Source: Alphaproteobacteria bacterium (GTDB taxonomy: Bacteria > Pseudomonadota > Alphaproteobacteria > HIMB59). From it: a DNA stretch of 51,549 nt. Made by a program: the position numbers and the translations under genes. The notes under the pieces were generated by a model, which was given only the letters and a program-made list of their open reading frames with translations, was not told where the DNA came from and did not search any database. Positions 9,914-42,114 of this stretch are shown here, in pieces. Each line of letters opens with the position of its first letter. Positions within the stretch are counted from its first letter, which is position 1. The DNA is taken from NCBI GenBank assembly GCA_029246865.1, contig JAQWMI010000045.1, positions 1 through 51,549 of the forward strand. The letters are read 5' to 3'.

Positions 9914-10629
9914 TTATTTTTTTTTACTAAAGTGTGAAAATTGTTTAAATATCTGTTTTTCAACCATACAATGCCAAATAAATCGTAAATACCCGCTAGA
10001 GCTCTTCCTAAATTATTATAATTACTGACTCCAGAATGTCTATTGCGGTGATTTACATTAATGTAATGTGTTTTGCACCCTATCATTTTAAATAAAAATG
10101 GCATGAACCTATGCATATTTTTGAAATGTGGTAATAACATATAATCAGATTTATTAAAAATTTTTATTCCACAACCAGAGTCAGGATGATTATCGTCAAG
10201 AATTAGAACTCTAATATAGTTAGCAATTTTAGAAGCAATAACTTTAGAAATAGTATCTTTTCGTGAGTGTCTAAAACCTTGAATAAATACTTTATTTTTC
10301 TTTAACTCTAAAAATTTTTTAAAAAGTAAAGGTATATCAGCTGGATCATTTTGTAGATCCCCATCAATTGTAATGATTATATCATTTTTAGTATTAATAA
10401 TTCCTGTATGAATTGCTGCGCTTTGGCCTAAGGTAGAATCATGGGAAATAAACTTAAATTTGGTATTTTTAATTTTTTTAAGTTGAGTCTCAGATTTATC
10501 TTTGGAGGCATCATTAACGAATATTACTTGCGATAAGGGGACTTTACTACAAGAAGCCAGTATCTCCTTAAAAAGAATTGGGATATTTTTTTCTTCATTG
10601 AAAATTGGTGCAATTACAGTAAAACTCAT
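9910..10629 (-). CDS. Family 2 glycosyltransferase (ArnC/DPM-like)
   Basis: GT-A fold enzyme likely to transfer a sugar from a nucleotide donor to polyprenyl phosphate at the membrane. It opens FTVIAPIFNEEKNI and has the acidic signature DGDLQNDP at 89-96 and a QGFRHSRKD stretch. At 239 aa it lacks the two-helix C-terminal membrane anchor of many ArnC proteins. The LAB_N protein overlapping its stop may supply the membrane part. The sugar is unknown. It is divergent from hisI, with 34 bp between the starts. Confidence 0.85.
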   Translation of the reverse strand: MSFTVIAPIFNEEKNIPILFKEILASCSKVPLSQVIFVNDASKDKSETQLKKIKNTKFKFISHDSTLGQSAAIHTGIINTKNDIIITIDGDLQNDPADIPLLFKKFLELKKNKVFIQGFRHSRKDTISKVIASKIANYIRVLILDDNHPDSGCGIKIFNKSDYMLLPHFKNMHRFMPFLFKMIGCKTHYINVNHRNRHSGVSNYNNLGRALAGIYDLFGIVWLKNRYLNNFHTLVKKNK

Positions 10630-23959: not shown

Positions 23960-24970
23960 TCATATTAAAATTTTGATCTGATTATTTACAAAATCAAGAT
24001 CTTCTTTACTTTTTGCAGCACCTGCATAATGACCATAATTAGAAGGAATAATCTCCAACTTTCCATTTTTTAAACTCTTTAATTCTTCTTTATTTTCTTC
24101 AGGTGGAAAATATAAATCATTAATACCGGGCATAAGAACAACGTTAGCTTTAATAGAACTTAAGGCTTCTTCTATATTTCCGTTAAATTTTTCATTATTG
24201 CTAATATCGTGTTCTTGCCAAGTTCTTATCATTGCTAATAAGTCATTAGCATCTCTTTTGTAGTAAATTGTTTTCCATAATTTATCGAGAACTTCCTGGG
24301 GACTTTTATATCCATCATTGAGATAGAGTTTTTCTCTAAACCAATTTTGACCTAAGGCCCAACCTGCCCAAGCCATGGCCATTGTTGTTTTTCCAGCATT
24401 TGGTTGTTCTTTGTAATTGCCTTCATTCCAATTTAGATCTGATGTTAGAGCGGCATACATTCCTTCTAAGAATACATGAGTATGACCACTAGTTTTTGCA
24501 TGAGCGCACATCGCTGCTATATTTTCTACCATATCTGGATACTGAGTTGCCCACTGGTAAGCCTGCTGGCCTCCCATGGACCAACCAACGACTAACTTAA
24601 TGTTTTCTATACCAAAAAAATTAGTAACTAAATTATGTTGAGCAGTAACATTGTCTTGAATTGTTATCAGCGGAAAGTTAGGTCCGTTTGAAGGCTCAAT
24701 AGTATTACTAGGAGAAGATGAAACTCCATTACAAAACATATTAGGAATTATTATGAAGTAGTCTTTCGGGTTAAGAGCTAACTGTTCTCCAATTAAATAA
24801 CCTTGTTCAAGATGAGTACCGGCATAACGAGTTGGATAAATAATTACATTATCTTTTTTTTCATTGAGCTCTCCTACTGTTAAATAAAAGAGCTCAAGAT
24901 TTATAGTTACCCCAGATTTGAGAGTAAAATTATCAAGCTTATGGACTTTAAGATTTGTACTACTGATCAA
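23960..24970 (-). CDS. MetX-like alpha/beta hydrolase paired with a GS-family ligase
   Basis: Homoserine O-acetyltransferase-like fold, 336 aa. The nucleophile elbow is GWSMGGQQ (Ser131), the acid Asp in PGINDLYFPPE and the His in YGHYAGAAK. Classical MetX proteins have a different substrate pocket and are usually longer, and nothing here belongs to methionine synthesis. It begins directly after the stop of the GS-like gene upstream, so the two probably act in turn. One plausible role is hydrolysis of a gamma-glutamyl amide or related amide or ester. The function is not known. Confidence 0.82.
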   Translation of the reverse strand: MISSTNLKVHKLDNFTLKSGVTINLELFYLTVGELNEKKDNVIIYPTRYAGTHLEQGYLIGEQLALNPKDYFIIIPNMFCNGVSSSPSNTIEPSNGPNFPLITIQDNVTAQHNLVTNFFGIENIKLVVGWSMGGQQAYQWATQYPDMVENIAAMCAHAKTSGHTHVFLEGMYAALTSDLNWNEGNYKEQPNAGKTTMAMAWAGWALGQNWFREKLYLNDGYKSPQEVLDKLWKTIYYKRDANDLLAMIRTWQEHDISNNEKFNGNIEEALSSIKANVVLMPGINDLYFPPEENKEELKSLKNGKLEIIPSNYGHYAGAAKSKEDLDFVNNQIKILI

Positions 24971-26368
24971 TTAAAATAGCTTTAGGTATTCTTTAATTTC
25001 CCAGTCAGTAGTTGTTGTATGATACCTACTCCACTCGTCATACTTGTAGCCAATAAAGTTTTTAAGCATAGACTCGCTAAATACTTCTTTAGTCAAAGGA
25101 TCTGCTTTAAAAGCATCAATAGCCTCTAATAAGTTTCTTGGAAGAGTTTTAATATTCTTACCTTCTTCTTCTGTAATGTCATAAAGACTTTTATTAGTAG
25201 CTTCAGGTGGTTGCATATTTTCAGTAATACCTTTAGTTACAGCAGCCGACATTAAAGTGAAAGTTAGATAGGGATTTTGTGTTAAGTCAGAAGCTCTATC
25301 TTCAATACAAAATCTGTTTTGAGGTAATCTAATCATAGCAGATCTATTGTTACTTCCGTAAGTCATGTGTGTGGGGGCCCAAGTATGTCTTCCTCCATCT
25401 AGACCTTCGACTGTAGGAACAAATCCATTATAAGAGTTAACTGTAGGACATGCTAATGCAGTAATAGCTGCACCATGCTCCAACATTCCAGCGACACCAT
25501 TCATAGCTCTTGATGAAAAGTTATCTCCATCTTTATAAATATTTTTATTTTTTTCACTAATACACTCAACACTATGATTGATATGCGCTCCTGATCTCCA
25601 ATCACTTATTTGAGTTTTAGGCATATAAGAAATAAAATAACCATGTTTTTTAGCAATTTCTTTAAGAAGAACTCTTAAAAATATAAATCTATCAGCCATT
25701 CCTAGCATATCAGTATAGCCAAAATCTAGTTCGTACTGACCATAAGCACCCTCTGCTACTACATCATGTAACTCCCACTTAAGATCCTCATTTAAAATAT
25801 CAATAATCTCTTTCAAAAAATTCATACCATCAATTGAATACTCCGAGTCATATCCAAAAGCTTGTCTTCTTAAAGAAATAGGATCTCTATCAATGGCTTT
25901 TACAGGCTTACCATCCTCCCACTTCATAACAAAAAATTCAGGTTCCATGCCCACATAAAATTTTAAATCTGCATCTGCATTTTTCTTAATTTGTTTTTTA
26001 AGGGTTTGTCTTGGGCAAACATCGTATGGCTTACCATTCCACCAAAGGTCAGAGAAAACCCACGCACATGTTTTATCCCAAGGACAAATTAATAATGAGT
26101 CAAGATCTGGAACAGGTATTTGATCATTGTCAGCAGCAGTTAATTCAGGGACAAAAGAAACTGAATGAACAGCAAACTGCGGTCCTTTACCGGCACATAA
26201 ATCTTCGAAGTCGCTGATGGGCATAGGTTTAGTTTTTGGACTACCTAAAAAATCAATCCAATGAGAATAAATATATTTAACACCTTTAGATTCTAAGTCT
26301 TTTTTTATCGCTTTTACTCTTGCAGGATCCGGTAAGGCATCCTTCATATTTTCAATATATTCTCCCAT
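24971..26368 (-). CDS. Glutamine-synthetase-family ligase (gamma-glutamyl-amine type, substrate unknown)
   Basis: ATP-dependent carboxylate-amine ligase fold of the GS type, 465 aa. The N-terminal beta-grasp part (SHWIDFLGSPKTKPMP) and catalytic core (GMEPEFFV, VAEGAYGQYELDFGYTD, NRSAMIRLPQNRFCIEDR) are present. An adenylylation-like loop SLYDITEEE is kept. It differs from GlnA (4993), from GmaS (29378) and from the GS at 35372, so the substrate is probably an amine other than ammonia. A strong AGGAGG lies before the ATG. The downstream MetX-like hydrolase adjoins it with no gap. Confidence 0.85.
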   Translation of the reverse strand: MGEYIENMKDALPDPARVKAIKKDLESKGVKYIYSHWIDFLGSPKTKPMPISDFEDLCAGKGPQFAVHSVSFVPELTAADNDQIPVPDLDSLLICPWDKTCAWVFSDLWWNGKPYDVCPRQTLKKQIKKNADADLKFYVGMEPEFFVMKWEDGKPVKAIDRDPISLRRQAFGYDSEYSIDGMNFLKEIIDILNEDLKWELHDVVAEGAYGQYELDFGYTDMLGMADRFIFLRVLLKEIAKKHGYFISYMPKTQISDWRSGAHINHSVECISEKNKNIYKDGDNFSSRAMNGVAGMLEHGAAITALACPTVNSYNGFVPTVEGLDGGRHTWAPTHMTYGSNNRSAMIRLPQNRFCIEDRASDLTQNPYLTFTLMSAAVTKGITENMQPPEATNKSLYDITEEEGKNIKTLPRNLLEAIDAFKADPLTKEVFSESMLKNFIGYKYDEWSRYHTTTTDWEIKEYLKLF

Positions 26369-26440
26369 CGTTCCTCCTGTTTTAACTATGTGTATTATAA
26401 GTATAAATATTTTTTTTTCATTAATAATAAAAAGATAATT

Positions 26441-26704
26441 ATGATAATATTAATCATGAATATAAGTTTGTTTAAGAGAAGTTGGAGAAAATTTTATAAA
26501 AGAGCTTTTGGTACGACATTTATCATACTAACTTTTATGACACTCATTGATCAAGGGTTAGCTAATCCTTTATTTGCCTCTAAGATTGTAGGAATGAAAA
26601 CTCTTATAGGAGCCTTTTTAAATATATTTTATTTTTCTATTGGTTCGGGATTATTGGCAATCCTAGCATTAGTAATTATGACAATAGCAACTAAAGAAAA
26701 TTAA
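26441..26704 (+). CDS. Small predicted membrane protein, unknown
   Basis: About 87 aa from the ATG at 26441; an alternative ATG at 26456 is possible, and neither has a clear ribosome site. A basic stretch FKRSWRKFYKRAFG is followed by two hydrophobic segments, roughly residues 22-45 and 52-82. It lies divergent from the GS-like gene, and its stop overlaps that of the convergent amidotransferase by four bases (TTAA), the same arrangement as other real gene pairs here. I do not recognise the family. Confidence 0.6.
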   Translation: MIILIMNISLFKRSWRKFYKRAFGTTFIILTFMTLIDQGLANPLFASKIVGMKTLIGAFLNIFYFSIGSGLLAILALVIMTIATKEN

Positions 26705-27441
26705 TTTAATAACTTTAGCCAATTTTTTAATTCAATCAGACGATTTTCATTATCATTTACTTCTTTTATCCTTAAGCTATTGATCAATGCATCAAAATCT
26801 AATTCGTTAATAATTTTACTATAATTTTTTTTCCAAAAAACCATGAGATTTGCAATGTAGTCGTAACCTAACTCTGAGTGATATTGAGTACAAAAGATTT
26901 TTTTTCTGGCTGAGTAAATTGACTGAATACAATTATCATTTTCAGCGATAGATTCAAAATCATTAGGAATATCAACGATAATATCGTAATGATGAGCGGG
27001 AGCATCAAAAACTATATTTTTACTCTTATAAATAGTCTTATTTAAAATAGGGTTTTTAATAACTATATTTTTAGCAATACCGAACTCTGGTTTATGACTT
27101 TTTTTTACTTGTTTACCCAGAGCTGTAACAATAACCTGCATACCCCAACAACTACCCCAAATAGGCTTATTAAGTTTTAGAATATTTGAGCAAAAATCTA
27201 GTTGAGATTTATTATGCTCATTTTCTTCATAAATATTCCCTCCACCTCCTGTCCACATAAAAGCATTATAATTATTTAAATCATAATCTACGTTATTATA
27301 GGAATTAAAAATATCAATTGTAGAGTTTGGCAGTGTGGATGTGATGAGTTCAGTAAATATTTCCTTTTGTAGATTACAGCCTGATTTGACATGATCTAAG
27401 TCACCTTCTTCTGTCCATCCATTAACAACAAGAATCTTCAA
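26701..27441 (-). CDS. Class I glutamine amidotransferase-like protein
   Basis: Stand-alone GATase1 domain, 246 aa. The nucleophile is Cys98 in WGSCWGMQ, TGGGGNIYE forms the oxyanion region, and the His-Glu pair is in TQYHSELG. It starts with TTG immediately after the TAG of the 59-aa gene, so it is coupled to it and to the amt unit. The family includes gamma-glutamyl hydrolases (PuuD type) and GMP-synthase-like glutaminases. Its place among gamma-glutamyl-amine genes suggests a gamma-glutamyl amide substrate, which is inference. Confidence 0.85.
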   Translation of the reverse strand: MKILVVNGWTEEGDLDHVKSGCNLQKEIFTELITSTLPNSTIDIFNSYNNVDYDLNNYNAFMWTGGGGNIYEENEHNKSQLDFCSNILKLNKPIWGSCWGMQVIVTALGKQVKKSHKPEFGIAKNIVIKNPILNKTIYKSKNIVFDAPAHHYDIIVDIPNDFESIAENDNCIQSIYSARKKIFCTQYHSELGYDYIANLMVFWKKNYSKIINELDFDALINSLRIKEVNDNENRLIELKNWLKLLN

Positions 27442-27891: not shown

Positions 27892-29187
27892 TTAATAGTT
27901 AGTGGCTTTTAAACCAAGTTCAGCCTTGTCAATACCTGCTTGTTGAACGTGATCAGGAACTCTTAACCATCCCATCATTTTCATTACAAACGATACTCCC
28001 CATCCAGGTATGAAACCAACAGCAAACATAGTTAGACAGCCAACAAATTGACCATATAAACTAGCCGCTGGAATTGTATCGTCCATACCAGGGTAACCTG
28101 AAGCAAAGATACCCATGGCTAAAACACCCCAAATACCTGCTACACCGTGAACAGCTACAGCTCCTACTGGATCATCGATCTTAAAGACTTTATGTAACCA
28201 GTTATTAGCAGGAATAATAATACACCCACCAACAAATCCTAGAACGAAAGCTAGTCCTGGATACCAAATATCTAAACCAGATGCACATGAGAAAATACCT
28301 GCAAGTCCACCTGACATCATCCAAAAAGGATTACCTTTACTAATCCAGAAGGCACCAATCATACCACCAGCAAGACCCATTAGAGTATTGAAAGCAAATG
28401 AGGATAAAGTAGCTGGAACAAAGTAAATAGTGGTCCATGTATTAACACCTTCATAAGCTGGAATACCTGGCCAAATTAGACATGCTCCTAAGAAACCAAA
28501 GAATCCTACGATTATCATTAAAAGTCCTACAAAAGAGAACCTTAAATCATGTCCTTCTAGCTCATTCATTGATCCGTCAGCATTGTATCTGCCTACTCTT
28601 GGTCCTAAATTTAAGATAACACCAAATGCAAACCAACCTGCAATCATATGTACAACACCTGCTGCAGCTACATCATGATAACCAAATTTTGTTACCAACC
28701 AACCATCATAATGCCAACCCCATGAAGCGCCAAGATTCCAACAAACTGAACCTAAAAGCACAGCTAAGAAAACAAAAGAACTAATTCTAATTCTTTCGAT
28801 AACAGCACCTGAGAAAACTGAAGCAGTTGTACAAGCAAATAGAGTAAATGCAGCCCAAAAGACACCAGTTAATTGATCTGAAAGCATAGGTCCCATTGAT
28901 ACATTCCAGGGCACGCCATAACCTTCCATATCCATTGGAATTAATCCATGAGGAAATGCTAGGTAAATATACCACCCGAATAACCAAAATGTCGGTATCA
29001 TAAACGCAAAAGCGAGAAGATTTTTAACACCAGAAGAAACAGCGTTTTGCATTCTTGACGCTCCCACTTCGTACATTAAAAAACCAACGTGAATCGCAAT
29101 CATTAATCCAGTCATGATGTAATACCAGCCTTCGGCTGCCACATATGTCTGAGTAATGACCGCGGTTGTAAGTTCTTCTAAAGTCAT
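27892..29187 (-). CDS. amt: Ammonium/methylammonium transporter, Amt family
   Basis: Inner-membrane channel for ammonium, about eleven helices, 431 aa. The pore twin histidines are in AAAGVVHMIAGW and in VGAVAVHGVAGIWG. The N-terminal part (MYEVGASRMQNAVSSGVKN) differs from the E. coli AmtB pattern, so this is a divergent subfamily. AAGGAG precedes the ATG. It is divergent from gmaS across a 190-bp gap with a palindromic operator at 29281. This suggests that it takes up methylamine as well as, or instead of, ammonia, or recovers leaked ammonia; that is inference. Confidence 0.9.
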   Translation of the reverse strand: MTLEELTTAVITQTYVAAEGWYYIMTGLMIAIHVGFLMYEVGASRMQNAVSSGVKNLLAFAFMIPTFWLFGWYIYLAFPHGLIPMDMEGYGVPWNVSMGPMLSDQLTGVFWAAFTLFACTTASVFSGAVIERIRISSFVFLAVLLGSVCWNLGASWGWHYDGWLVTKFGYHDVAAAGVVHMIAGWFAFGVILNLGPRVGRYNADGSMNELEGHDLRFSFVGLLMIIVGFFGFLGACLIWPGIPAYEGVNTWTTIYFVPATLSSFAFNTLMGLAGGMIGAFWISKGNPFWMMSGGLAGIFSCASGLDIWYPGLAFVLGFVGGCIIIPANNWLHKVFKIDDPVGAVAVHGVAGIWGVLAMGIFASGYPGMDDTIPAASLYGQFVGCLTMFAVGFIPGWGVSFVMKMMGWLRVPDHVQQAGIDKAELGLKATNY

Positions 29188-29377: not shown

Positions 29378-30685
29378 ATGTCAATAAATTTACATAATTA
29401 TGCCAAGAAAAATGGTATCGAATATTTTTTTGTAAGCTTTGTCGATATGTTTGGGATATTAAGATCAAAATTAGTTCCCTCTAGAGCTATAGATGAAATC
29501 CAATCTGAAGGAGCAGGCTTTGCAGGTTTTGCAACTTGGCTTGATATGTCTCCATCTGACCCTGATATGTTTGGAATGCCTGATGGAGATAGTGTAATAC
29601 AATTACCTTGGGATAAAAAAATTGCTTGGGTTGCCTGTGACTTATATATGTCTGGTAAGCCAGTTGAAGCGTCACCTAGAATTGCATTAAAAAGACAAAT
29701 GGAAAAAGCCGCCAAATTAGGAATGTATATGAAGTCTGGAGTTGAATGTGAATACTTTTTAGTAAACTCTAATGGTACCGAATTATCAGATTTAAAAGAT
29801 ACTCAAGAAAAACCTTGTTATGACTCTTCAGCCTTAATGAGAAGATATGATGTAATTACAGAAATATGTGACTCTATGATTGAGCTGGGATGGAATCCCT
29901 ATCAAAACGATCATGAAGATGCTAACGGTCAGTTTGAAATGAATTGGGATTTTTCTGACTGTCTAATTACCGCTGATAGACACGCTTTTTTTAAATTTAT
30001 GACTAAGACCATCGCTGAAAAAAATGGCTTAAGAGCTACATTTATGCCTAAACCTTTCACAAACTTAACTGGTAATGGTTGTCATAGTCATATTTCAGTT
30101 TGGGATAAATCAGGTAAGAAGAACTTATTTCATGACAAGAAAGATGAATTAGGTTTGTCTAAAACTGGCTATAATTTTCTTGGAGGAATTGTTCATAGTG
30201 CTGATAAAATGGCAGCAATTTTTAATCCTACAGTAAATAGTTACAAGAGAATTAATGGTTCTGTCACTCTTTCCGGAGCGACATGGTCACCAAGCTCAAT
30301 TACTTGGGCAGGAAATAATAGAACACATATGGTTCGTGTTCCAGGTCCTGGTCGCTTTGAACTGAGGTTAATGGATGGTGCTTCTAATCCATATTTACTT
30401 CAAGCTGGGAGTTTAATGCTAGGCTTAGATGGAGTGAATAATAAAAGAGATCCAGGAAAAAGATTAGACATCAATATGTACACGGAAGGACATAAAGCCG
30501 GAAAAGTAAAGAAGCTTCCATTAAACTTATTGGACTCTATTCGTAATTTCGACGCATCTACAATAATTAGAGAAGGTTTTGGAAACCAATTTGTTGATAG
30601 TTACGTAAAATTAAAGAACAAAGAATGGGAGTCTTACAATAAACATCTCTCCGAATGGGAAAGAAATACAACACTAGACTGTTAA
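29378..30685 (+). CDS. gmaS: Gamma-glutamylmethylamide synthetase (GmaS)
   Basis: Joins methylamine to the gamma-carboxyl of glutamate with ATP, the first step of the N-methylglutamate pathway. It has 435 aa, the length of the 'type III glutamate-ammonia ligase' family to which marine GmaS belongs. Family stretches seen are VSFVDMFGILRSKLVPS, GAGFAGFATWLDMSPSDPDM, NDHEDANGQFEMNWD, TGNGCHSHISVWDKSG and AGNNRTHMVRVPGPGRFE. The GlnA-type adenylylation loop is replaced by NMYTEGHKAG. TAGGAG precedes the ATG. The pathway genes mgs and mgd lie 10-16 kb away under the same putative operator. Confidence 0.92.
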   Translation: MSINLHNYAKKNGIEYFFVSFVDMFGILRSKLVPSRAIDEIQSEGAGFAGFATWLDMSPSDPDMFGMPDGDSVIQLPWDKKIAWVACDLYMSGKPVEASPRIALKRQMEKAAKLGMYMKSGVECEYFLVNSNGTELSDLKDTQEKPCYDSSALMRRYDVITEICDSMIELGWNPYQNDHEDANGQFEMNWDFSDCLITADRHAFFKFMTKTIAEKNGLRATFMPKPFTNLTGNGCHSHISVWDKSGKKNLFHDKKDELGLSKTGYNFLGGIVHSADKMAAIFNPTVNSYKRINGSVTLSGATWSPSSITWAGNNRTHMVRVPGPGRFELRLMDGASNPYLLQAGSLMLGLDGVNNKRDPGKRLDINMYTEGHKAGKVKKLPLNLLDSIRNFDASTIIREGFGNQFVDSYVKLKNKEWESYNKHLSEWERNTTLDC

Positions 30686-30689
30686 AAAT

Positions 30690-31247
30690 ATGCTATCACC
30701 TGACGTACTTAGAGAAAAATTTCTAGACTGGCAATGTCAATCTAGAATACAAGCTTTTAGAACTCAAAACGGAAGACCAAACTCATCGATGTCACCTTTA
30801 TTACTTGATAAAAAAGGTGATGAGTTGGCGCGCATAATAGTTGTTATCACTGAAAACAATCCTGTCAATACAACTAAAATGTTTGAGCATATTAATAGAG
30901 CTACCTATGATCCAGCTACTCGTTTTGATAAAATGAATAAATTCCTTTCTTCTGAATATTTTTTAGATAGGAATAATTTTTCAGACTCTGTTTTTGCAAC
31001 TTTCCCGTCTAGCTCAGCCATAACAAAAAAAATTTTAAAAGACGGTTCTTGTATTTTAGATTTTATTCATTTGTCCACAAACTATAGATTAGTATGCAAT
31101 CCATTTAAATTAGAAACAGACGAAGATCATTGGGAAAACATATACTGGCACAATAGAAATTTTAATCCTGGTTTAGGTTCAGATATTGATGTGATAAAAT
31201 TTATACCTGATTGGAAAAAATCAAAACTAATAAGAATTACAGATTAG
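30690..31247 (+). CDS. Conserved-looking protein coupled to gmaS, unknown
   Basis: 185 aa, beginning MLSPDVLREKFLDWQCQSRI. It is soluble, with no signal peptide or membrane helix, and rich in aromatics near the end (DEDHWENIYWHNRNF). I do not recognise a domain. It starts only four bases after the gmaS stop, so it is almost certainly co-translated with it and may help GmaS or the next step. Confidence 0.8.
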   Translation: MLSPDVLREKFLDWQCQSRIQAFRTQNGRPNSSMSPLLLDKKGDELARIIVVITENNPVNTTKMFEHINRATYDPATRFDKMNKFLSSEYFLDRNNFSDSVFATFPSSSAITKKILKDGSCILDFIHLSTNYRLVCNPFKLETDEDHWENIYWHNRNFNPGLGSDIDVIKFIPDWKKSKLIRITD

Positions 31248-31719: not shown

Positions 31720-32214
31720 TTATTCGACTAACTTAAAGTTCTCGCCTTTTGTATAGGTTCTCTTAAGTTGAACAAGAGGATGATTTGGTGACATTTGAAA
31801 TTTAATTAATAATTCCCTTGCTAACATATCTCTATCTTGTTGACCTTTAGGAAGTTTGATTTTTTTTGGTAGTGTTATCCATGCATTAGCATTTCTATCA
31901 AACACCGCTGGAGTATCACCTTCAAAACCCATATGGATGTCTTCTAACCAATTCAAATCATCCCAACCCATAATATCAATATACTTTTTAAGAAATGGTG
32001 TTAAGTGTTTGTAGTCGGGTATTAAATTAACATCATAACGATAACCGATATGTTGACCGATCATCTTTTCTCTTGATGATTTAATTTCCTTATCTTTTAA
32101 CTTAGCACCACCGACAACTTTGTAGCCAGTTTTTGTATCTTTACTCTTAGCTGTAGTTTTTTTCTTTGAACTACTTGGAGATTTTTTCTTTGTAGTTTTT
32201 TTCTTTTTTACCAT
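31720..32214 (-). CDS. Lys-rich protein at the end of the glxBCD-type operon, unknown
   Basis: 164 aa. The first ~40 residues are a low-complexity Lys/Ser/Thr tail (MVKKKKTTKKKSPSSSKKKT). The rest looks folded, with IGQHIGYRYDVNLIPDYKH, a Trp-rich GWDDLNWLEDIHMGF and KGQQDRDMLARELLI. It has no membrane helix, and I do not recognise a family. It follows the FMN-subunit gene by 17 bp on the same strand and the hairpin at 31681 ends the unit. The other mgs set in this window has no counterpart. Confidence 0.8.
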   Translation of the reverse strand: MVKKKKTTKKKSPSSSKKKTTAKSKDTKTGYKVVGGAKLKDKEIKSSREKMIGQHIGYRYDVNLIPDYKHLTPFLKKYIDIMGWDDLNWLEDIHMGFEGDTPAVFDRNANAWITLPKKIKLPKGQQDRDMLARELLIKFQMSPNHPLVQLKRTYTKGENFKLVE

Positions 32215-32231: not shown

Positions 32232-33566
32232 TTAAATTGAGTGATAGTTGTCGACACCAACAGTCAAGTCAGTACCTGCTAAAGGAACTTTAGCCATTGC
32301 TGATGACTCCATAGTTAGAGCAGCTAAATCTTCAGGCTCAAGTGAATGGATATTAGTTTTTCCACAAGCTCTTGCTAACATTTGGCACTCAAGTGTCATT
32401 GTACTTAATAGATTATAAACTCTATCTGCAGCTTCAGTTGGATCTAATCTGCTTCTTAGAACTGGATCTTGTGTTGCAACACCCACAGGACATCTTCCTG
32501 TATGGCAGTGATAACAGTAACCAGCTTCAACACCCATTTCTTTTTCGTAGTCTGCTTCTGGGATATCTTTGTTACAATTAAGCGCAACTAAACCAGCAGT
32601 TCCGATGGCGATAGCATCAGCACCAAGAGCTATAGCTTTAGCCATATCCGCTCCATCTCTAATACCTCCAGCAAATACAAGAGAAACTTCTCCAGATTTA
32701 CCAACATCATCTAGTGCTCTTCTAGCTTCTCTTACAGCAGCGATTCCAGGTATACCTGTGTTTGCAGCGGCGATGTGTGGACCAGCAGCAGTTGAACCTT
32801 CCATACAATCTAAAAAGATTGAATCAGGATCACATTTTGCAGCCATACGAACATCATCATAAACTCTAGAAGCACCAATTTTTAATTGAATAGGCACTTG
32901 ATTATCTGTTAACTCTCTTAACTCTTGGACTTTTAAAGCTAAATCATCAGGACCCATCCAGTCAGGATGTCTAGCTGGTGATCTTTGATCGATACCAGCA
33001 GGTAGAGATCTCATTTCAGCAACTTGGTCAGTAACTTTTTGACCCATTAAATGTCCACCCATACCGACTTTTTGACCTTGGCCAATAAATACTTCAATAG
33101 CATCAGCTAATTGAGCATGATGAGGGTTAAAACCGTATCTTGATTGGATACATTGATAGTACCATTTATTGGAATACCTTCTTTCATCAGGAATCATTCC
33201 TCCTTCTCCAGAACAAGTAGCACTTCCAGCCATAGCTGAACCTCTAGCCAAAGCAGTTTTAGCCTCATAAGAAAGAGCACCAAAACTCATACTTGTTATA
33301 TAGACAGGTATATCTAGTTTGATTGGATTCTTGGCTCTAGGACCAATTATCGTTTCTGTTAAACACTTCTCTCTGTATCCTTCGATAACAAATCTAGTTA
33401 ATGTACCTGGTAGAAAAACCAAATCATCCCAATGAGGGATTTTTTTCATAAGAGCCATACCTCTCATACGGTAACGACCTAGTTGTGCTTTGATATGGAT
33501 GTCATCCATCACTTCAGGAGTGAAGATTGAGTTTTTTCCTAATAATTGCGTATTACGTTTTGTCAT
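32232..33566 (-). CDS. glxD: FMN-binding glutamate-synthase-like subunit with Fe-S cysteines (GlxD/MgsC type, set 1)
   Basis: Corresponds to the FMN/Fe-S domain of glutamate synthase, where an amine reacts with a keto acid and is reduced. It has 444 aa, a TIM barrel with SMSFGALSYEAK, GQGQKVGMGG, FAGGIRDGADMAKAIALGAD, and a cysteine cluster Cys351, Cys354, Cys359 in CYHCHTGRCPVGVATQ, as in GltB. It is third in a set (amidotransferase, GXGXG, FMN subunit) preceded by a GS-like gene and a FAD oxidoreductase. About half of it is close in pattern to the copy at 39209, which lacks the cysteines. The symbol follows the rhizobial glx naming; the reaction is unproven. Confidence 0.87.
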   Translation of the reverse strand: MTKRNTQLLGKNSIFTPEVMDDIHIKAQLGRYRMRGMALMKKIPHWDDLVFLPGTLTRFVIEGYREKCLTETIIGPRAKNPIKLDIPVYITSMSFGALSYEAKTALARGSAMAGSATCSGEGGMIPDERRYSNKWYYQCIQSRYGFNPHHAQLADAIEVFIGQGQKVGMGGHLMGQKVTDQVAEMRSLPAGIDQRSPARHPDWMGPDDLALKVQELRELTDNQVPIQLKIGASRVYDDVRMAAKCDPDSIFLDCMEGSTAAGPHIAAANTGIPGIAAVREARRALDDVGKSGEVSLVFAGGIRDGADMAKAIALGADAIAIGTAGLVALNCNKDIPEADYEKEMGVEAGYCYHCHTGRCPVGVATQDPVLRSRLDPTEAADRVYNLLSTMTLECQMLARACGKTNIHSLEPEDLAALTMESSAMAKVPLAGTDLTVGVDNYHSI

Positions 33567-33571
33567 TTTTT

Positions 33572-34408
33572 CTAACCTAAGATACCTTTCTTTTCTGCTG
33601 GCTCTAAATTGTCATAATTCCATAGCATTCTTCCTGCCACATACTTCTTAAATTTAGAAGCTGGAACTTTACAATCAATTTCAGCATTTTTTATTTTTTG
33701 TTCTAACCATCTGATTTCATGATCATTCATTTCACCCTCAACACAGTCTGTTCCTAGCGATCTAGGCTCACCACCAACGAAGATAATTCCGTCATACATA
33801 GAGTCACCCATGTTTGCACTAACGTTACCACAAACAATGATACGACCTCTTTGCATCATAAATCCAGTATATGCTCCAGCATTACCACCAACTAAGATAG
33901 TTCCACCCTTCATATCAATACCGGTTCTTGCACCAGCGTCACCCTTACAGATTAAATCACCACCTCTAAGAGCTGCACCAAAACATGATCCTGCATTATT
34001 TTCTACAACAACCTTACCAGACATCATATTTTCAGCACATGACCAACCAACTCTTCCATTAATTCTAACAGTAGGTCCATCAATACAACCAACACCAAAA
34101 TAACCTAAGCTACCTTCAAATATTAAGTTTAATTTATTAAGTATTCCTACACCCAATGCATGCTTAGCACCGGGATTTTTAATAACAATTGAACCGTAAC
34201 CTTTTAGAAGTGCATTTCTAACCTTTTGGTTAAGTTCTTTACCGTCAAGATCTTTGCAATCAATTTCGGTTCTTTTATTAAAATCAACATCATGGTTACC
34301 ATAATACGTAAAATTTTCTTCCTCAGTAACTTCAAAAAATAATTTTTGAGATCTTCCAGATAAATTTTCGTCTTGGAAAGCAGTTACTTTTTTTTCTAAA
34401 CCTGCCAT
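33572..34408 (-). CDS. glxC: GXGXG beta-helix subunit, glutamate-synthase-like (GlxC/MgsB type, set 1)
   Basis: Corresponds to the C-terminal GXGXG domain of glutamate synthase, a right-handed beta helix that links the other two subunits. It has 278 aa. Repeating glycine turns are seen from about 110 to 245 (GYFGVGCIDG, CAENMMSGKVVV, GDAGARTGIDMKGG, GNAGAYTGFMMQRG, GNVSANMGDSMYDG). Its ATG lies inside the end of the amidotransferase gene (13-bp overlap), and the FMN subunit follows after 5 bp. It is longer at the N-terminus than the 231-aa copy at 40541. Confidence 0.88.
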   Translation of the reverse strand: MAGLEKKVTAFQDENLSGRSQKLFFEVTEEENFTYYGNHDVDFNKRTEIDCKDLDGKELNQKVRNALLKGYGSIVIKNPGAKHALGVGILNKLNLIFEGSLGYFGVGCIDGPTVRINGRVGWSCAENMMSGKVVVENNAGSCFGAALRGGDLICKGDAGARTGIDMKGGTILVGGNAGAYTGFMMQRGRIIVCGNVSANMGDSMYDGIIFVGGEPRSLGTDCVEGEMNDHEIRWLEQKIKNAEIDCKVPASKFKKYVAGRMLWNYDNLEPAEKKGILG

Positions 34409-35346
34409 ACTTTTACCTCCGCTTCATATGGGTCGTACGTTACAATTTCATGGGGAAAAATATTTCTAATTGCAACTTCTTCAGAAGCACAAGCGACGAT
34501 ATCTTTTCCTTCATAAATGACCATAGGTTTTGCAGCCATATGATCTTTAGCCATACCTAGTTGATTTTTAGTTGAAACAATGTAAGTGAAAACACCATCT
34601 AGCTCATCTAGACTATCATTCATTGCTTGTTCTAATTCAATTCCTTTAGACATTTTATCGGCAATATAAACCGCAATAATTTCCGAGTCACAATTAGAAT
34701 TAAAGCGATAGCCACTTCTCTCTAATACTCTTCGATTACCCCAATAATTAGTTAGTTGTCCGTTATGAACGACAGCTACATCCTGATATGGAAATGCCCA
34801 ATAAGGGTGAGCAGATTTAATATCCACATCAGACTCGGTTGCCATTCTTGTATGGCCGATACCATGAGTTCCCATAAATTTACCAAGACCATATTGATCT
34901 GCAACGACTGTTGCATCACCAAGATCTTTTATCAACTCAAGACCTTTTCCAATTGATAAGATTTCAGTTTTTTCAACTGTCTCTATCGCTTTTGCCAATT
35001 CTTCTAGATTTTCACTTTTATAAGTAAATTCATAGCGAAATGCGTAAGGAGTACTTGATGACTGCTTGGTAATCTTTGCTCCATGTTCCTTCATTAGTGC
35101 GTCCACCTGCTTTTTACGATCCTTTAGAACTTCTGGATCCTCAGTCTTAGCTGAACCTTTTACCTCAGCTGCATTTTCAGATATTTTAAATCTGAGAATA
35201 AAGCCAGTTTTCAAAGGCGTACCATACATAGCATAACCAGTTGAGTCTGGACCTCTATGTTTAATACCTTGAAGCATTAATCTCATTTGTTCACCGACAT
35301 TAACGCTTTTCTTACTTCTATTAATTACTCCTGCTATTCCGCACAT
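34396..35346 (-). CDS. glxB: Class II amidotransferase subunit (GlxB/MgsA type, set 1)
   Basis: N-terminal-nucleophile amidotransferase that would release ammonia or an amine from a gamma-glutamyl amide. I chose the ATG at 35346 because Cys2 (MCGIAGVI) must be the first residue after Met removal and AAGGAG precedes it. The frame is open further up to 35424, inside the GS gene, but such a leader would bury the nucleophile. It has 316 aa, with GHTRMATESD and VVHNGQLTNY as in purF/GltB amidotransferase domains. Confidence 0.9.
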   Translation of the reverse strand: MCGIAGVINRSKKSVNVGEQMRLMLQGIKHRGPDSTGYAMYGTPLKTGFILRFKISENAAEVKGSAKTEDPEVLKDRKKQVDALMKEHGAKITKQSSSTPYAFRYEFTYKSENLEELAKAIETVEKTEILSIGKGLELIKDLGDATVVADQYGLGKFMGTHGIGHTRMATESDVDIKSAHPYWAFPYQDVAVVHNGQLTNYWGNRRVLERSGYRFNSNCDSEIIAVYIADKMSKGIELEQAMNDSLDELDGVFTYIVSTKNQLGMAKDHMAAKPMVIYEGKDIVACASEEVAIRNIFPHEIVTYDPYEAEVKVWQV

Positions 35347-35371
35347 TTCGCTATTCTCCTTATAATTATTT

Positions 35372-36838
35372 TTATGGTAGGCAATCCAAGTATTTATCAA
35401 GATCCCACTGAGTTGGAGTAGCAAGAAATTCTTCCCACTCGTCAGTTTTGTATTCTGTAAATACTCTTAACATATCTCCAGGCATAGCGTCTTGAATAAC
35501 TTTATCTTTTGAAAGTTTTTCTAGAGCCTCACCTAAAGTCATTGGTAATTTTTCTTTACCTTCATTAGCTTCATACATGTTAGCTTGTTCAGGTTTACCT
35601 GGATCCATTTTTTCAGAAATACCATGACTAAATGCTTTAAGTAATCCTGATCCCATGAGGTAAGGGTTATGAGCAGAGTCTACTGAACGGTATTCAAATC
35701 TACCTGGTGCAGAAACTCTTAAACCACAGGTTCTATTTTGGAAACCCCAGTCTGCGTAAACTGGTGCCCAGAAACCTGCGTCCCAAAGCCTTCTGTATGA
35801 GTTAACCGTTGAAGAACCAATTGATGTAAGCGCTGGAAGATGTTCCATAACTCCACCAATTGCCTGAAGTCCAATTTTACCTGGAATTTTATTATCATCA
35901 GTATCGGGCATGAACACATTCTCGCCACCACTTCTATGGTGATAAACTTGCTCCATACCAGGAAGCGCCTTAACGTCGTTTCCACAAGGGATTACTTTGT
36001 CAGTTCCGTCTTTCCATAAAGAAATATTTGTATGACAACCAGAGGCTGAAACACCAACAAAAGGTTTTGATAAAAAACAAGCTATCAAATTAAACTCTCT
36101 AGCTACTTGAGCACAAATCTGCCTGTATGTTGATAATCTATCCGCGTTTCTCACTACGTCATCATAATTAAAGTTAAGCTCTAATTGACCTGGAGCATCT
36201 TCGTGATCACCTTGAATAATATCAAGACCCATCAGACGGGAGTATTCAATAACCTTCATATAAACAGGTCTCAAAGATTCAAATTGATCTATATGATAAC
36301 AATAAGGCTTAGAAAAACCAGAACCAGTAGGAGTTCCATCTTCATTTTTGGTCAACCACATCATTTCAGGCTCTGTACCTGCTCTTAATTCAAGGCCATG
36401 CTTATCCTTAAATTCTTGGTGATGTCTCTTTAAATTACCACGACAATCAGAAGTTAAAAAACCACCCGGATCTTCATCTTCTTCTCTGTTTCTAAAACAT
36501 GTACAAAAAACTCTAGCGATTCTTTTATCCCAAGGAAGTTGCATGAATGTTTCTGGATCGGGAATACCAACAAGCTCATGAGCTTCAGGCCCGTAACCAA
36601 TATAGTTGCCATTTCTATTAGTAAATAAATTTGCAGTTGAACCGTAAACTAATTGGAAACCTTTTTTAGCAACATTTTCCCAATGATCAGCAGGATAACC
36701 TTTACCTACAATTCTTCCTGTTACAGAAATAAATTGAAAGTAAATGTATTCAATACCCAGTTCATTTATTTTACTTCTTACTTTTTGTACGTTTTCATTT
36801 CTTTCTTTATCGGCAACGTATGTTTCTAATGCAGTCAT
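35372..36838 (-). CDS. Glutamine-synthetase-family ligase of the glxBCD-type operon
   Basis: GS-fold gamma-glutamyl ligase, 488 aa. Core stretches include GTEPEMMWL, GDHEDAPGQLELNFNYDD, GVSASGCHTNISLWKDG and the ATP/Glu region QNRTCGLRVSAPGRFEYRSVD. There is no GlnA-type adenylylation loop (NMYEANEGKEK). AGGAGG lies before the ATG. It sits between the FAD oxidoreductase and the amidotransferase subunit in one operon, so its product is probably handed to that set. It differs clearly from GmaS, so the amine may not be methylamine. Confidence 0.87.
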   Translation of the reverse strand: MTALETYVADKERNENVQKVRSKINELGIEYIYFQFISVTGRIVGKGYPADHWENVAKKGFQLVYGSTANLFTNRNGNYIGYGPEAHELVGIPDPETFMQLPWDKRIARVFCTCFRNREEDEDPGGFLTSDCRGNLKRHHQEFKDKHGLELRAGTEPEMMWLTKNEDGTPTGSGFSKPYCYHIDQFESLRPVYMKVIEYSRLMGLDIIQGDHEDAPGQLELNFNYDDVVRNADRLSTYRQICAQVAREFNLIACFLSKPFVGVSASGCHTNISLWKDGTDKVIPCGNDVKALPGMEQVYHHRSGGENVFMPDTDDNKIPGKIGLQAIGGVMEHLPALTSIGSSTVNSYRRLWDAGFWAPVYADWGFQNRTCGLRVSAPGRFEYRSVDSAHNPYLMGSGLLKAFSHGISEKMDPGKPEQANMYEANEGKEKLPMTLGEALEKLSKDKVIQDAMPGDMLRVFTEYKTDEWEEFLATPTQWDLDKYLDCLP

Positions 36839-39208: not shown

Positions 39209-40537
39209 TTAATAATTATTTTTACTACCTGGAATCCAGTTAGTTCCTGATAGAGGCACACCTGCCATAGCTGCCGCTTCTACAGTTAAGGCACATAAGT
39301 CTTCAGGTTCAAGATTATGTAAATCATTTTTTCCACAAGCTCTTGCAATAGTCTGAGCCTCTAAAGTCATAACTTTTAAATAATTAGATAATCTTTTTCC
39401 TCCAGCTACAGGATCAAACCTTTTCATAAGCTTTGGATCTTGGGTGTTAATTCCAGCAGGATCTTTACCTTCATGCCAATCATCATAGGCCCCAGCAGTT
39501 GTACCTAGTTTTTTATATTCTGCTTGCCATTTAGGATCATTATCACCAAGAGCAATCAGAGCGGCAGAACCAATTGATACAGCATCAGCGCCTAGTGCCA
39601 TAGCTTTTGCAACATCCGCGCCATTTCTAATCCCTCCAGATACTATTAGTTGTACTTTTCTGTGCATGTCTAAATCTTGTAATGCTTGAACTGCAGGCCT
39701 TATACAAGCCAATGTAGGTTGACCAACATTTTCAATAAAAACCTCTTGAGTAGCTGCAGTTCCGCCCTGCATTCCATCGAGAACAACAACATCTGCTCCA
39801 GCCTTAACAGCTAAAGCTGTATCATAGTAAGGTCTTGAGCCTGCAACTTTTACAAATATGGGAACTCTCCAACCTGTGATTTCTCTTAATTCTAATATTT
39901 TAATTTCTAAATCATCTGGTCCGGTCCAATCAGGATGTCTACAAGCAGACCTTTGATCAATACCCTTAGGAAGCGTTCTCATATCAGCAACTCTATCGCT
40001 AATTTTTTGACCTAATAACATTCCTCCACCACCTGGCTTTGCTCCTTGACCAATCACAACTTCAATAGCATCTGCTTTTCTTAAATCATCAGGGTTCATT
40101 CCATATCTAGATGGAAGTAATTGGTATACTAAATTTTTAGACTGGCCTCTCTCTTCAGGTGTCATTCCTCCGTCACCAGTTGTAGTTGAAGTTCCAGCAA
40201 TACTAGCCCCTCTGCCAAGTGCTTCTTTAGCAGGTCCAGACAAAGCTCCAAAACTCATTCCTGCAATTGTAATTGGAATATCAAGATATAATGGATTTTT
40301 TGCATACCTAGTACCTAGCTGCACTTTTGTACTACAAGACTCTCTATAACCCTCATAGGGATATCTTGACATTGAGGCTCCAAGGAAAAGTAAATCATCA
40401 AAATGAGGTAATTTTCTTTTTGAACCACCACCCCTAATATCATAAATTCCTGTTTCAGCAGCCCTTCTAATTTCTGAATTTGTATATTCGTCGAATGTCC
40501 AAGACTGTCTAGGGGTTGTTTTAAATTTATCACTCAT
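39209..40537 (-). CDS. mgsC: N-methylglutamate synthase FMN subunit (MgsC), without Fe-S cysteines
   Basis: Glutamate-synthase-like FMN barrel, 442 aa (IAGMSFGALSGPAKEALGRG, GQGAKPGGGGMLLGQ, SGGIRNGADVAKAMALGAD). Where the paralogue at 32232 has three cysteines, this one has YDDWHEGKDPAGINTQ (351-366), so no Fe-S cluster can form there. It is last gene of the mgdABCD-mgsABC operon, three bases after mgsB. It would combine methylamine released from gamma-glutamylmethylamide with 2-oxoglutarate and reduce the product to N-methylglutamate. The assignment rests on operon context and family. Confidence 0.88.
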   Translation of the reverse strand: MSDKFKTTPRQSWTFDEYTNSEIRRAAETGIYDIRGGGSKRKLPHFDDLLFLGASMSRYPYEGYRESCSTKVQLGTRYAKNPLYLDIPITIAGMSFGALSGPAKEALGRGASIAGTSTTTGDGGMTPEERGQSKNLVYQLLPSRYGMNPDDLRKADAIEVVIGQGAKPGGGGMLLGQKISDRVADMRTLPKGIDQRSACRHPDWTGPDDLEIKILELREITGWRVPIFVKVAGSRPYYDTALAVKAGADVVVLDGMQGGTAATQEVFIENVGQPTLACIRPAVQALQDLDMHRKVQLIVSGGIRNGADVAKAMALGADAVSIGSAALIALGDNDPKWQAEYKKLGTTAGAYDDWHEGKDPAGINTQDPKLMKRFDPVAGGKRLSNYLKVMTLEAQTIARACGKNDLHNLEPEDLCALTVEAAAMAGVPLSGTNWIPGSKNNY

Positions 40538-40540
40538 TTA

Positions 40541-41236
40541 TTAATATTCCGAAACATTATCTATATTGAAATTATATAATTTTCTTGCAGAGCCGTACAT
40601 TTTAAAATCATTAGCATCAAAATTTTTTATGTTAGCTTTTTTTAATAAAGATTTTAATATTTCCATATCTTTTTTACTTATTTTTTTTTCTTCACAATCG
40701 GCACCTAAGGACTTAACAGTTCCTCTTACAAACAATTTTGCTTCATAGAGACTATCGCCTAATGCTTCGCCGGCATCACCACAAATAACCATATTGCCAG
40801 CTTGAGCCATAAATGCAGACATATGCCCAACAGATCCTTTGACTATAATATCTATACCTTTCATAGAAATACCACACCTTGAACTTGCATTACCATCAAT
40901 AATAAGGGTGCCACCATGAGCAGTAGCTCCAGCTGATTGAGAGGCATTTCCTTTTACGTGGACAGTTCCAGACATCATATTTTCAGCAACGCCTGTGCCT
41001 ACATTACCTTCAATAGTGATGAGAGCTTTTTGATTCATACCTGCACAATAATAACCAACATGACCTTTAACTAAAACTTCCATTTCATCTTTTAATCCAG
41101 CACAAACTGCATGATTACCAGTTGGATTAGTAACAAGATAATTTCTTAAGTTGGACTTAGGGTCAAGATTTTGCAAAAGATCATTTACTTCTCTTAAAGT
41201 TTTTTTCTTTAGGTCTAATTTAATTAGTTCCCCCAT
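40541..41236 (-). CDS. mgsB: N-methylglutamate synthase GXGXG subunit (MgsB)
   Basis: 231 aa of glycine-turn beta helix (GNVGTGVAENMMSGTVHVKG, GGTLIIDGNASSRCG, GDAGEALGDSLYEAKLFVRG). Its start lies 13 bp inside the end of mgsA, exactly as in the other set. It is probably the structural link between the amidotransferase and FMN subunits. Confidence 0.88.
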   Translation of the reverse strand: MGELIKLDLKKKTLREVNDLLQNLDPKSNLRNYLVTNPTGNHAVCAGLKDEMEVLVKGHVGYYCAGMNQKALITIEGNVGTGVAENMMSGTVHVKGNASQSAGATAHGGTLIIDGNASSRCGISMKGIDIIVKGSVGHMSAFMAQAGNMVICGDAGEALGDSLYEAKLFVRGTVKSLGADCEEKKISKKDMEILKSLLKKANIKNFDANDFKMYGSARKLYNFNIDNVSEY

Positions 41237-42114
41237 GAATACACTACTCCCGGTTCTGGTTCAAAAATTTTAGCCGTATTAACACCTGGCAGATGAGCCA
41301 TTGCTTGAAACTCAGATGCGATAGCTACATAGTCTTTTGTTTCAGCAATTACTGCTGGCTTACATGCAATTTCATCTCTAACAATAGCAAAGCCTTCTCT
41401 TGTTCCAGTAATAAAAGTGTAGAAACCATCAAGGTCCTTTAAACCATTCACGAGAGTTTCTTTTAAAGATTTTTTATTAGATAAACTATTTGAAACATAT
41501 CCAGCTGCAACTTCTGTGTCATTTTCAGAGTCAAAAGACTGACCTTGTTTTAAAAGTTTTCTTCGTAAGTTATTATGATTTGAAAGGGATCCATTATGAA
41601 CGAGACATTCGTCTTGCCCTGTAGAGTAAGGATGTGAGCCATTGGTTGTAATAGCACTTTCTGTAGCCATTCTTGTGTGTCCAATAGCATGAGTACCAGA
41701 AAACTTATCTAACTGAAAATTTTTTATAACGTCAATTGGATTACCGACTTGTTTAAAAATTTCAATAGACTTTCCGTATCCAACTAAAGATGCTTCTTTT
41801 AACTCAGTAGATATAAAAGAAACTATTTTTTTAGGATCTGAGTCTGAAGTTAAAATAACATGATCAGAATGTTGCTTAATTTTTAAATTCTTAAATTTTT
41901 TTGTAATAATCTTTTTGAAAGTATTAAAAGAATAATTATTTAAAAGGCAAACAGAGTATTTATATTCTTTAGATTTTTTATTTTCAGAGTATATGGCAAA
42001 ACCTGCACTATCTGGACCACGTGTGGCCATACCCTGCATCATTCCAGTTAGATATTTACCTAAGTCTTTTGAAAGTTTTTTATTTTTTAAATATATACCG
42101 ACGATGCCGCACAT
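41224..42114 (-). CDS. mgsA: N-methylglutamate synthase amidotransferase subunit (MgsA)
   Basis: Class II amidotransferase, 296 aa. Cys2 (MCGIVGIYL) is the N-terminal nucleophile. GHTRMATESAITTNGSHPY and CLVHNGSLSNH complete the site. GGAGAA precedes the ATG. It lies three bases after mgdD, linking the dehydrogenase and synthase halves in one transcript. It is expected to split gamma-glutamylmethylamide and pass methylamine on. Confidence 0.9.
   Translation of the reverse strand: MCGIVGIYLKNKKLSKDLGKYLTGMMQGMATRGPDSAGFAIYSENKKSKEYKYSVCLLNNYSFNTFKKIITKKFKNLKIKQHSDHVILTSDSDPKKIVSFISTELKEASLVGYGKSIEIFKQVGNPIDVIKNFQLDKFSGTHAIGHTRMATESAITTNGSHPYSTGQDECLVHNGSLSNHNNLRRKLLKQGQSFDSENDTEVAAGYVSNSLSNKKSLKETLVNGLKDLDGFYTFITGTREGFAIVRDEIACKPAVIAETKDYVAIASEFQAMAHLPGVNTAKIFEPEPGVVYSWGN

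Follow-up and report, generated by a model that had tools for sequence, protein, structure and literature searches.

The window, that is, the whole stretch of 51,549 nucleotides analysed here, carries two adjoining genes on its minus strand. GSx (24971..26368) encodes a glutamine-synthetase-like carboxylate-amine ligase of 465 aa, and HYD (23960..24970) encodes a 336 aa alpha/beta hydrolase of the family PRK07581 (NF005757), predicted to be of the MekB/CgHle esterase type. The first-pass annotation had described a glutamine synthetase (GS) homologue and a hydrolase of these lengths that abut exactly on one strand, and both open reading frames were confirmed, with no base between them. At the stop-start junction (24968..24973, minus strand) the TTG start of HYD directly follows the TAA of GSx. 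A strong AGGAGG ribosome site lies ahead of the ATG of GSx, and HYD is without a clear one of its own. We infer that the two genes are translationally coupled and expressed from one message.

The conservation of this arrangement was analysed in 37 genomes of the genus, whose completeness ranges from 50 to 99% (the assembly to which the window belongs has 1.29 Mb in 53 contigs). Both genes were present in 26 of them, only HYD in one (G031) and neither in ten, one of which (G009) has a 52-residue HYD fragment at 63%. The zero-base junction and the TTG start were found in all 26 genomes holding both genes; counted by loci, 26 of the 27 with HYD have GSx at zero distance and the TTG start, and one (L029) is without GSx. 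Among the loci in genome contigs, which come largely from the same genomes, the zero-base junction appeared in 33 of 34, the sole exception (L083) being a fragmented MAG with frame-shifted genes. Genes in GC-rich loci were called by ORF and codon-position rules and their starts may be misplaced. GSx gave dN/dS ratios of 0.02-0.08 and HYD of 0.04-0.22 (Nei-Gojobori, where dS was computable, with most dS values near saturation), and both genes are under purifying selection. Since the junction recurs and both genes are under such selection, the pair is real and conserved; chance adjacency was ruled out by the conserved junction and by the recurrence of the pair in other loci.

The genes of the genus block are ordered as an ammonium transporter, so called by resemblance (amt, 27892..29187, minus strand), a class-I glutamine amidotransferase-like protein of 246 aa (26701..27441, minus strand), a small reverse ORF, GSx, and HYD. 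The labels mgsA, mgsB, mgsC, soxA, amt, and tyrS were given by eye unless a family score is stated; the homologue of amt in a related locus (L126) matches the amt family TIGR00836 with a score below the cut-off. The block is bordered by tyrS at its HYD end; past amt, at the opposite end, come a glutamate-synthase-like set and gmaS (29378..30685, plus strand), which encodes a type III GS/GmaS-like ligase with an intact glutamate pocket and was used as the comparison for GSx. Considering that a trimethylamine N-oxide demethylase is encoded in the same window (49078-51423; 1121 bits on NF053776, cut-off 1100), the block appears to be located in a methylated-amine island. No methionine genes were seen among the window ORFs read, which agrees with the first reading of this DNA.

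Some further features of the region were recorded. The small reverse ORF that separates the amidotransferase from GSx (26390-26704) has no family match and is conserved in the genus, and in two relatives (L125 and L126) it adjoins HYD instead. In the same two relatives, which belong to the same taxonomic order, a glutamine riboswitch (RF01739) is located upstream of amt (L125:5565-5624 and L126:11007-11064), and none was found over threshold in the window. Two proteins without family match (30690-31247 and 31720-32214) stand beside gmaS across the genus. Two separate glutamate-synthase-like three-gene sets, recognised by eye, occupy positions 32232-35424 and 39209-42114 and flank a GS-like gene (35372-36838) which keeps Arg288 and has Ala at 231.

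GSx scored 266 bits on the catalytic domain profile PF00120 (cut-off 24) and 336 bits on TIGR03105 (type III GS/GmaS), below the cut-off of 469.6; the product of the neighbouring gmaS scored 641 bits on the latter. The GSx sequences form a clade with full support in the tree, and among solved structures GSx comes closest to glutamate ligases (9qur). The comparison covered 18 GSx sequences, of which some genus members are nearly the same and two plasmid copies are identical, and the ATP and metal residues are kept in 18/18. By comparison with the GmaS/type III GS enzymes (RhGmaS, 9qur), GSx is alike in fold, in length and in these residues, and Glu122, Glu124, Glu179, Glu186, His235, Arg312, Arg317, and Arg327 are common to both; four of them (Glu124, Glu179, His235, and Arg327) belong to the glutamate site.

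Differences are found in the pockets of acid and amine. In RhGmaS, six residues bind a glutamate analogue, Gly231 and Arg288 among them, and Asp177 of GmaS deprotonates the amine (PMC7948447). All 18 GSx sequences have Arg231, Gly288, Trp230, Val177, and Asp175 (RhGmaS numbering). The exchange of positions 231 and 288 (Gly231->Arg, Arg288->Gly) occurs in 18/18 GSx sequences and in 0/24 other GS-type proteins, and a glutamate site having both Arg288 and Gly231 is found in none of the 18. GSx also differs from GmaS by Asp177->Val, by Asn188->Asp and by a longer loop (GLDGG or GFEGG) after position 288. The predicted model of GSx is weak in the pocket loops (pLDDT <50 at 250-257 and 309-343), where the pocket is not interpretable. 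Taking into account that the Arg and the Gly which hold glutamate are exchanged and that a Trp is added beside them, the acid of GSx is probably not glutamate, at least not in its usual pose, and the ligase would otherwise be equipped to work. What is chiefly new here is that GSx makes up a GS subfamily of its own, one whose acid clamp is exchanged.

HYD is a member of the family PRK07581, with 415 bits and a cut-off of 332. The candidates for its catalytic triad, Ser131, Asp285, and His314, are invariant or near-invariant. Its predicted structure (pLDDT 84.6) has as closest solved folds MekB and an acetylester hydrolase of Corynebacterium glutamicum, whose structure entry we take to be that of CgHle (5efz, 5e4y, and 5d6o; 34% and 31% identity, TM 0.89), and the cephalosporin and homoserine acetyltransferases are further from the model than these two. 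HYD is thus a predicted serine hydrolase of the MekB/CgHle acetyl-esterase type, the closest by both fold and sequence; these esterases are not known to have a GS partner. One hydrolase, that of Gracilibacillus lacisalsi (L082:7971-8993), shows an internal repeat of ~23 residues and is missing its C-terminal part, which may reflect an error of assembly or reading frame.

On the MetX profiles HYD remained below the cut-offs (156 bits on TIGR01392, cut-off 500; 135 bits on PRK00175, cut-off 331). A true MetX of the same genome, located on another contig (C18), reached 508 bits on PRK00175 and 450 bits on TIGR01392, the latter also below 500. The MetX tunnel is described as lined by the motifs HALTGD and GHD(G/A)FL (PMC6937278). 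The MetX of the same genome carries HALTGD and GHDSFL; HYD is alike in overall fold, but both motifs are absent from it and PTRYAGTH and GHYAGA stand in their places. In a tree of 53 rows the MetX-like proteins are separated from HYD with support 99, and the grouping with true MetX, which the first-pass annotation named, together with complementation of a metX mutant, as refuting its proposal, did not appear. In spite of the fold resemblance and the 156 bits, that HYD is a homoserine acetyltransferase lying here by chance is scarcely credible, and a MetX identity was excluded on the profile scores, the motifs, the genome's own MetX and the tree.

GSx was found at an identity of at least 55% in 9 of 385 sampled alphaproteobacterial genomes, three of the nine being in the window's genus. 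HYD was over the cut-off in 49 of the 385, including all nine with GSx, so that no genome of this sample carries GSx alone (Fisher 4e-9, kinship ignored). The adjacency is widely conserved and not unique to the genome of the window; uniqueness was the other outcome which the first-pass annotation would have taken as a refutation. A sample of 398 genomes of the phylum gave no further genome with GSx at 55% identity or more; six non-self matches at 35-41% were obtained there, and one of these genomes had been counted in the class sample too. Three Rhodobacterales plasmid records carry GSx at 54%.

Twelve GSx loci other than the main locus of the genus were compared. One of them (L127) is a second GSx-HYD pair in the genus genome G015; as this genome is 4% contaminated and the contig of the pair is small, the pair may be foreign. 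HYD adjoins GSx in 9 of the 12; three ABC-transporter genes stand between the two in L156 (Leisingera thetidis), 1.3 Mb separate them in G317, and in G137 the contig ends at the GSx locus and a separate HYD is located elsewhere. The GSx-linked HYD proteins outside the main locus form one clade (11 rows, support 99), two non-adjacent ones included, and a joint clade of these with the HYD of the genus was neither supported nor rejected (AU p 0.149).

The company of the pair in these 12 loci includes a Rieske oxygenase and a glyoxalase in eight, an Lrp regulator in eight, a cupin in five, and a ureohydrolase in five. Five of the 385 class genomes have a Rieske orthologue at the 50% level or above, four of them along with GSx and one (G421) without. 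It was absent from the window's genome and from the three other genus genomes of the class sample, and the genus keeps GSx-HYD without Rieske, glyoxalase or cupin beside it. The only Rieske-type oxygenase of the window's own genome was considered as the missing partner and discarded as not an orthologue, being 26% like that of the operon. Compared with solved structures, the operon Rieske gave weak and mixed matches (salicylate 5-hydroxylase, carnitine monooxygenase). In L125 it contains the stretch ENYIEPYH, with Glu at a position that is Asp in many aromatic oxygenases; this Glu presumably marks quaternary-amine enzymes such as carnitine monooxygenase. The Leisingera plasmid locus has betaine-type neighbours (a BCCT transporter and a member of the trimethylamine methyltransferase family), and these two observations together lean towards N-methylated zwitterions. 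The ABC substrate-binding protein of L156 had no solved relative at E 0.001 and a generic SsuA-family likeness only.

The reading that we favour, tentatively and with a little less than even confidence, is that GSx and HYD each catalyse a step in the same breakdown pathway of a nitrogenous zwitterion, GSx being an ATP-dependent ligase of a non-glutamate acid. GSx would phosphorylate this carboxylate with ATP to give an acyl phosphate and would join the activated acid to ammonia or an amine, yielding an amide. In many relatives oxygenase and glyoxalase steps would come next, and HYD would then cut an amide or an ester further along. The order of tagging, oxidation and release seems likely because the operon of many relatives also encodes a Rieske oxygenase and a glyoxalase-like protein, frequently with a cupin; in the window's genome the route cannot be complete as written, since there is no Rieske orthologue there. 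As substrate of the route we expect a small zwitterion containing nitrogen, probably either N-methylated or of guanidino type.

Among the organic-amine ligases, NpaA1, AtdA1, and TdnQ are presumably linked to Rieske oxygenases, and the splitting partner of such ligases is a class-I amidotransferase-type protein, other than a hydrolase of HYD type. NpaA1, of the same superfamily as GSx, resembles it as a GS-like ligase that serves a degradation pathway together with an oxygenase; it is reported to retain the glutamate site and to alter the amine site (PMC11335346), whereas the acid pocket is altered in GSx.

One lineage bears on the order of the two steps. L071 and L072 have lost GSx except for its last codons (FKLF-stop), which are left as a scar ahead of the TTG of HYD (bases 7840-8012); a tblastn of GSx against the 8 kb upstream gave no match, and the dN/dS of HYD between the two loci is 0.08. 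HYD stays conserved after the deletion of GSx and is therefore useful without it, at least for a time, which weakens a strict coupling of GSx and HYD; HYD relatives of other bacteria also occur without GSx. It is conceivable that HYD works first, freeing a carboxylate from an ester, an amide or an N-formyl compound, and that GSx amidates the acid for a later step or for nitrogen storage. The nearness of HYD to acetyl esterases is consistent with this, as is its retention in a lineage where it may act on its own, and the order of reactions need not follow that of the genes. GSx, however, never occurs without HYD in the sampled class genomes, and nothing found separates this sequence of events from the two-step route preferred above. 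We consider it rather unlikely, though of appreciable weight.

The idea put forward in the first-pass annotation was a make-then-split route in which a gamma-glutamyl amide would be formed by GSx from glutamate and an amine and then be split by HYD, as in PuuA/PuuD and IpuC/IpuF, which are make-then-split pairs of ligase and hydrolase. It is consistent with the glutamate ligases (9qur) being the nearest solved relatives of GSx, with the neighbouring gmaS, which is such an enzyme by family, and with the four glutamate-site residues kept. In addition, three distant loci (L144, L145, and L146) have a GS-type ligase head to head with a PRK07581-type hydrolase, the ligases being 37-39% like GSx in the aligned part and having an intact glutamate pocket. 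The replacement of both Arg288 and Gly231 throughout GSx argues against it, as does the Val in place of the amine-site Asp177. GSx-HYD also differs from the PuuA/PuuD and IpuC/IpuF pairs in the hydrolase fold and the acid pocket, and the class-I glutamine amidotransferase at 26701-27441 fits the analogy better than HYD and is a candidate for an alternative gamma-glutamyl hydrolase. The make-then-split logic may stand, but gamma-glutamyl chemistry for this pair is doubtful and we assign it a low probability. In the literature searched we found no description of a MetX-like hydrolase that has a GS-like ligase as partner, and we do not claim that it is absent from print.

Guanidine or guanidino-acid metabolism was also considered as the home of the GSx-HYD route. 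Six records outside the genus (L125, L126, L156, L157, L158, and L209) have a ureohydrolase in the vicinity of GSx or HYD; that of L157 is nearest to 3-guanidinopropionase (3nip, 399 bits), and the sixth, 66% alike, is near the separate HYD of G137. Two of the distant pairs, from two genomes of one family, are located between two guanidine-I riboswitches and beside a large carboxylase (L144:5755-17650 and L145:1108-12950). In L144, where alone these scores were obtained, the carboxylase reached 1856 bits as urea carboxylase and the hydrolase 385 bits on PRK07581. A role in guanidine use is suggested for the GS-type ligase and the divergent hydrolase of these two loci. Moreover, a desaturase-family neighbour is found in 6 of 18 GSx-free loci with PRK07581 hydrolases (L198, L200, L201, L202, L206, and L207), and the one tested is weakly GntB-like (61 bits on the arginine hydroxylase, cut-off 380). 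On the other side, no guanidine riboswitch was found in the window, in L125, L126 and L156-L158, or in nine other HYD loci, the ureohydrolase of L125 is nearest to an agmatinase, and the GS pocket of the distant pairs is unlike that of GSx. The distant pairs and the desaturase neighbours make guanidino chemistry one option, not a finding for GSx, and as the setting of the route we hold it to be improbable. The guanidine riboswitch was set aside as a clue to the substrate of the GSx loci, its matches being only at the distant GS-type loci L144, L145, and L149. In the last of these (L149:8463-12049) a guanidine-II riboswitch (10530-10579) comes just after another GS-type ligase and precedes genes weakly like the Tdm protein of the window.

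The operon of Rieske, glyoxalase, cupin, GSx, HYD, and Lrp could, lastly, be the homarine operon published in 2026 and hence be already described. That operon reportedly comprises six genes, homABCDER, in hosts which are said to include Rhodobacterales and SAR11. No paper found in our literature search names the homarine genes. It is a serious candidate for identity with the Rieske-GSx-HYD operon, although we believe the identity itself to be unlikely. Genes that look by eye like those of N-methylglutamate metabolism adjoin GSx in the window, and N-methylglutamate dehydrogenase takes part in homarine use, as cited in PMC13390433. Against the identity, the genus has GSx-HYD without Rieske, glyoxalase and cupin beside it.

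Returning to the two-step route for a nitrogenous zwitterion, a more specific form of it can be drawn, which is speculative and has a small chance of being right. GSx would amidate a phytoplankton zwitterion (a betaine, an N-methylpyridinium-carboxylate or a guanidino-acid) by means of the swapped clamp, with the Trp for the cation; the amide handle would let the Rieske oxygenase attack, and HYD would remove the handle. If true, this tag-oxidise-untag logic on a carboxylate would mirror the way in which anilines are tagged at their amine. Given that the gene is joined to the hydrolase and, on the Leisingera plasmid and others, to a Rieske operon, one culturable relative would suffice to seek the substrate. 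Since the AEGEAN-169/HIMB59 group lives as bacterioplankton in the sea, the compound may belong to the marine dissolved nitrogen pool. GS relatives are known for changing the accepted amine while keeping glutamate; the acid clamp is swapped in all 18 GSx sequences, from several families, and this would mean that here the GS scaffold now serves a different acid.
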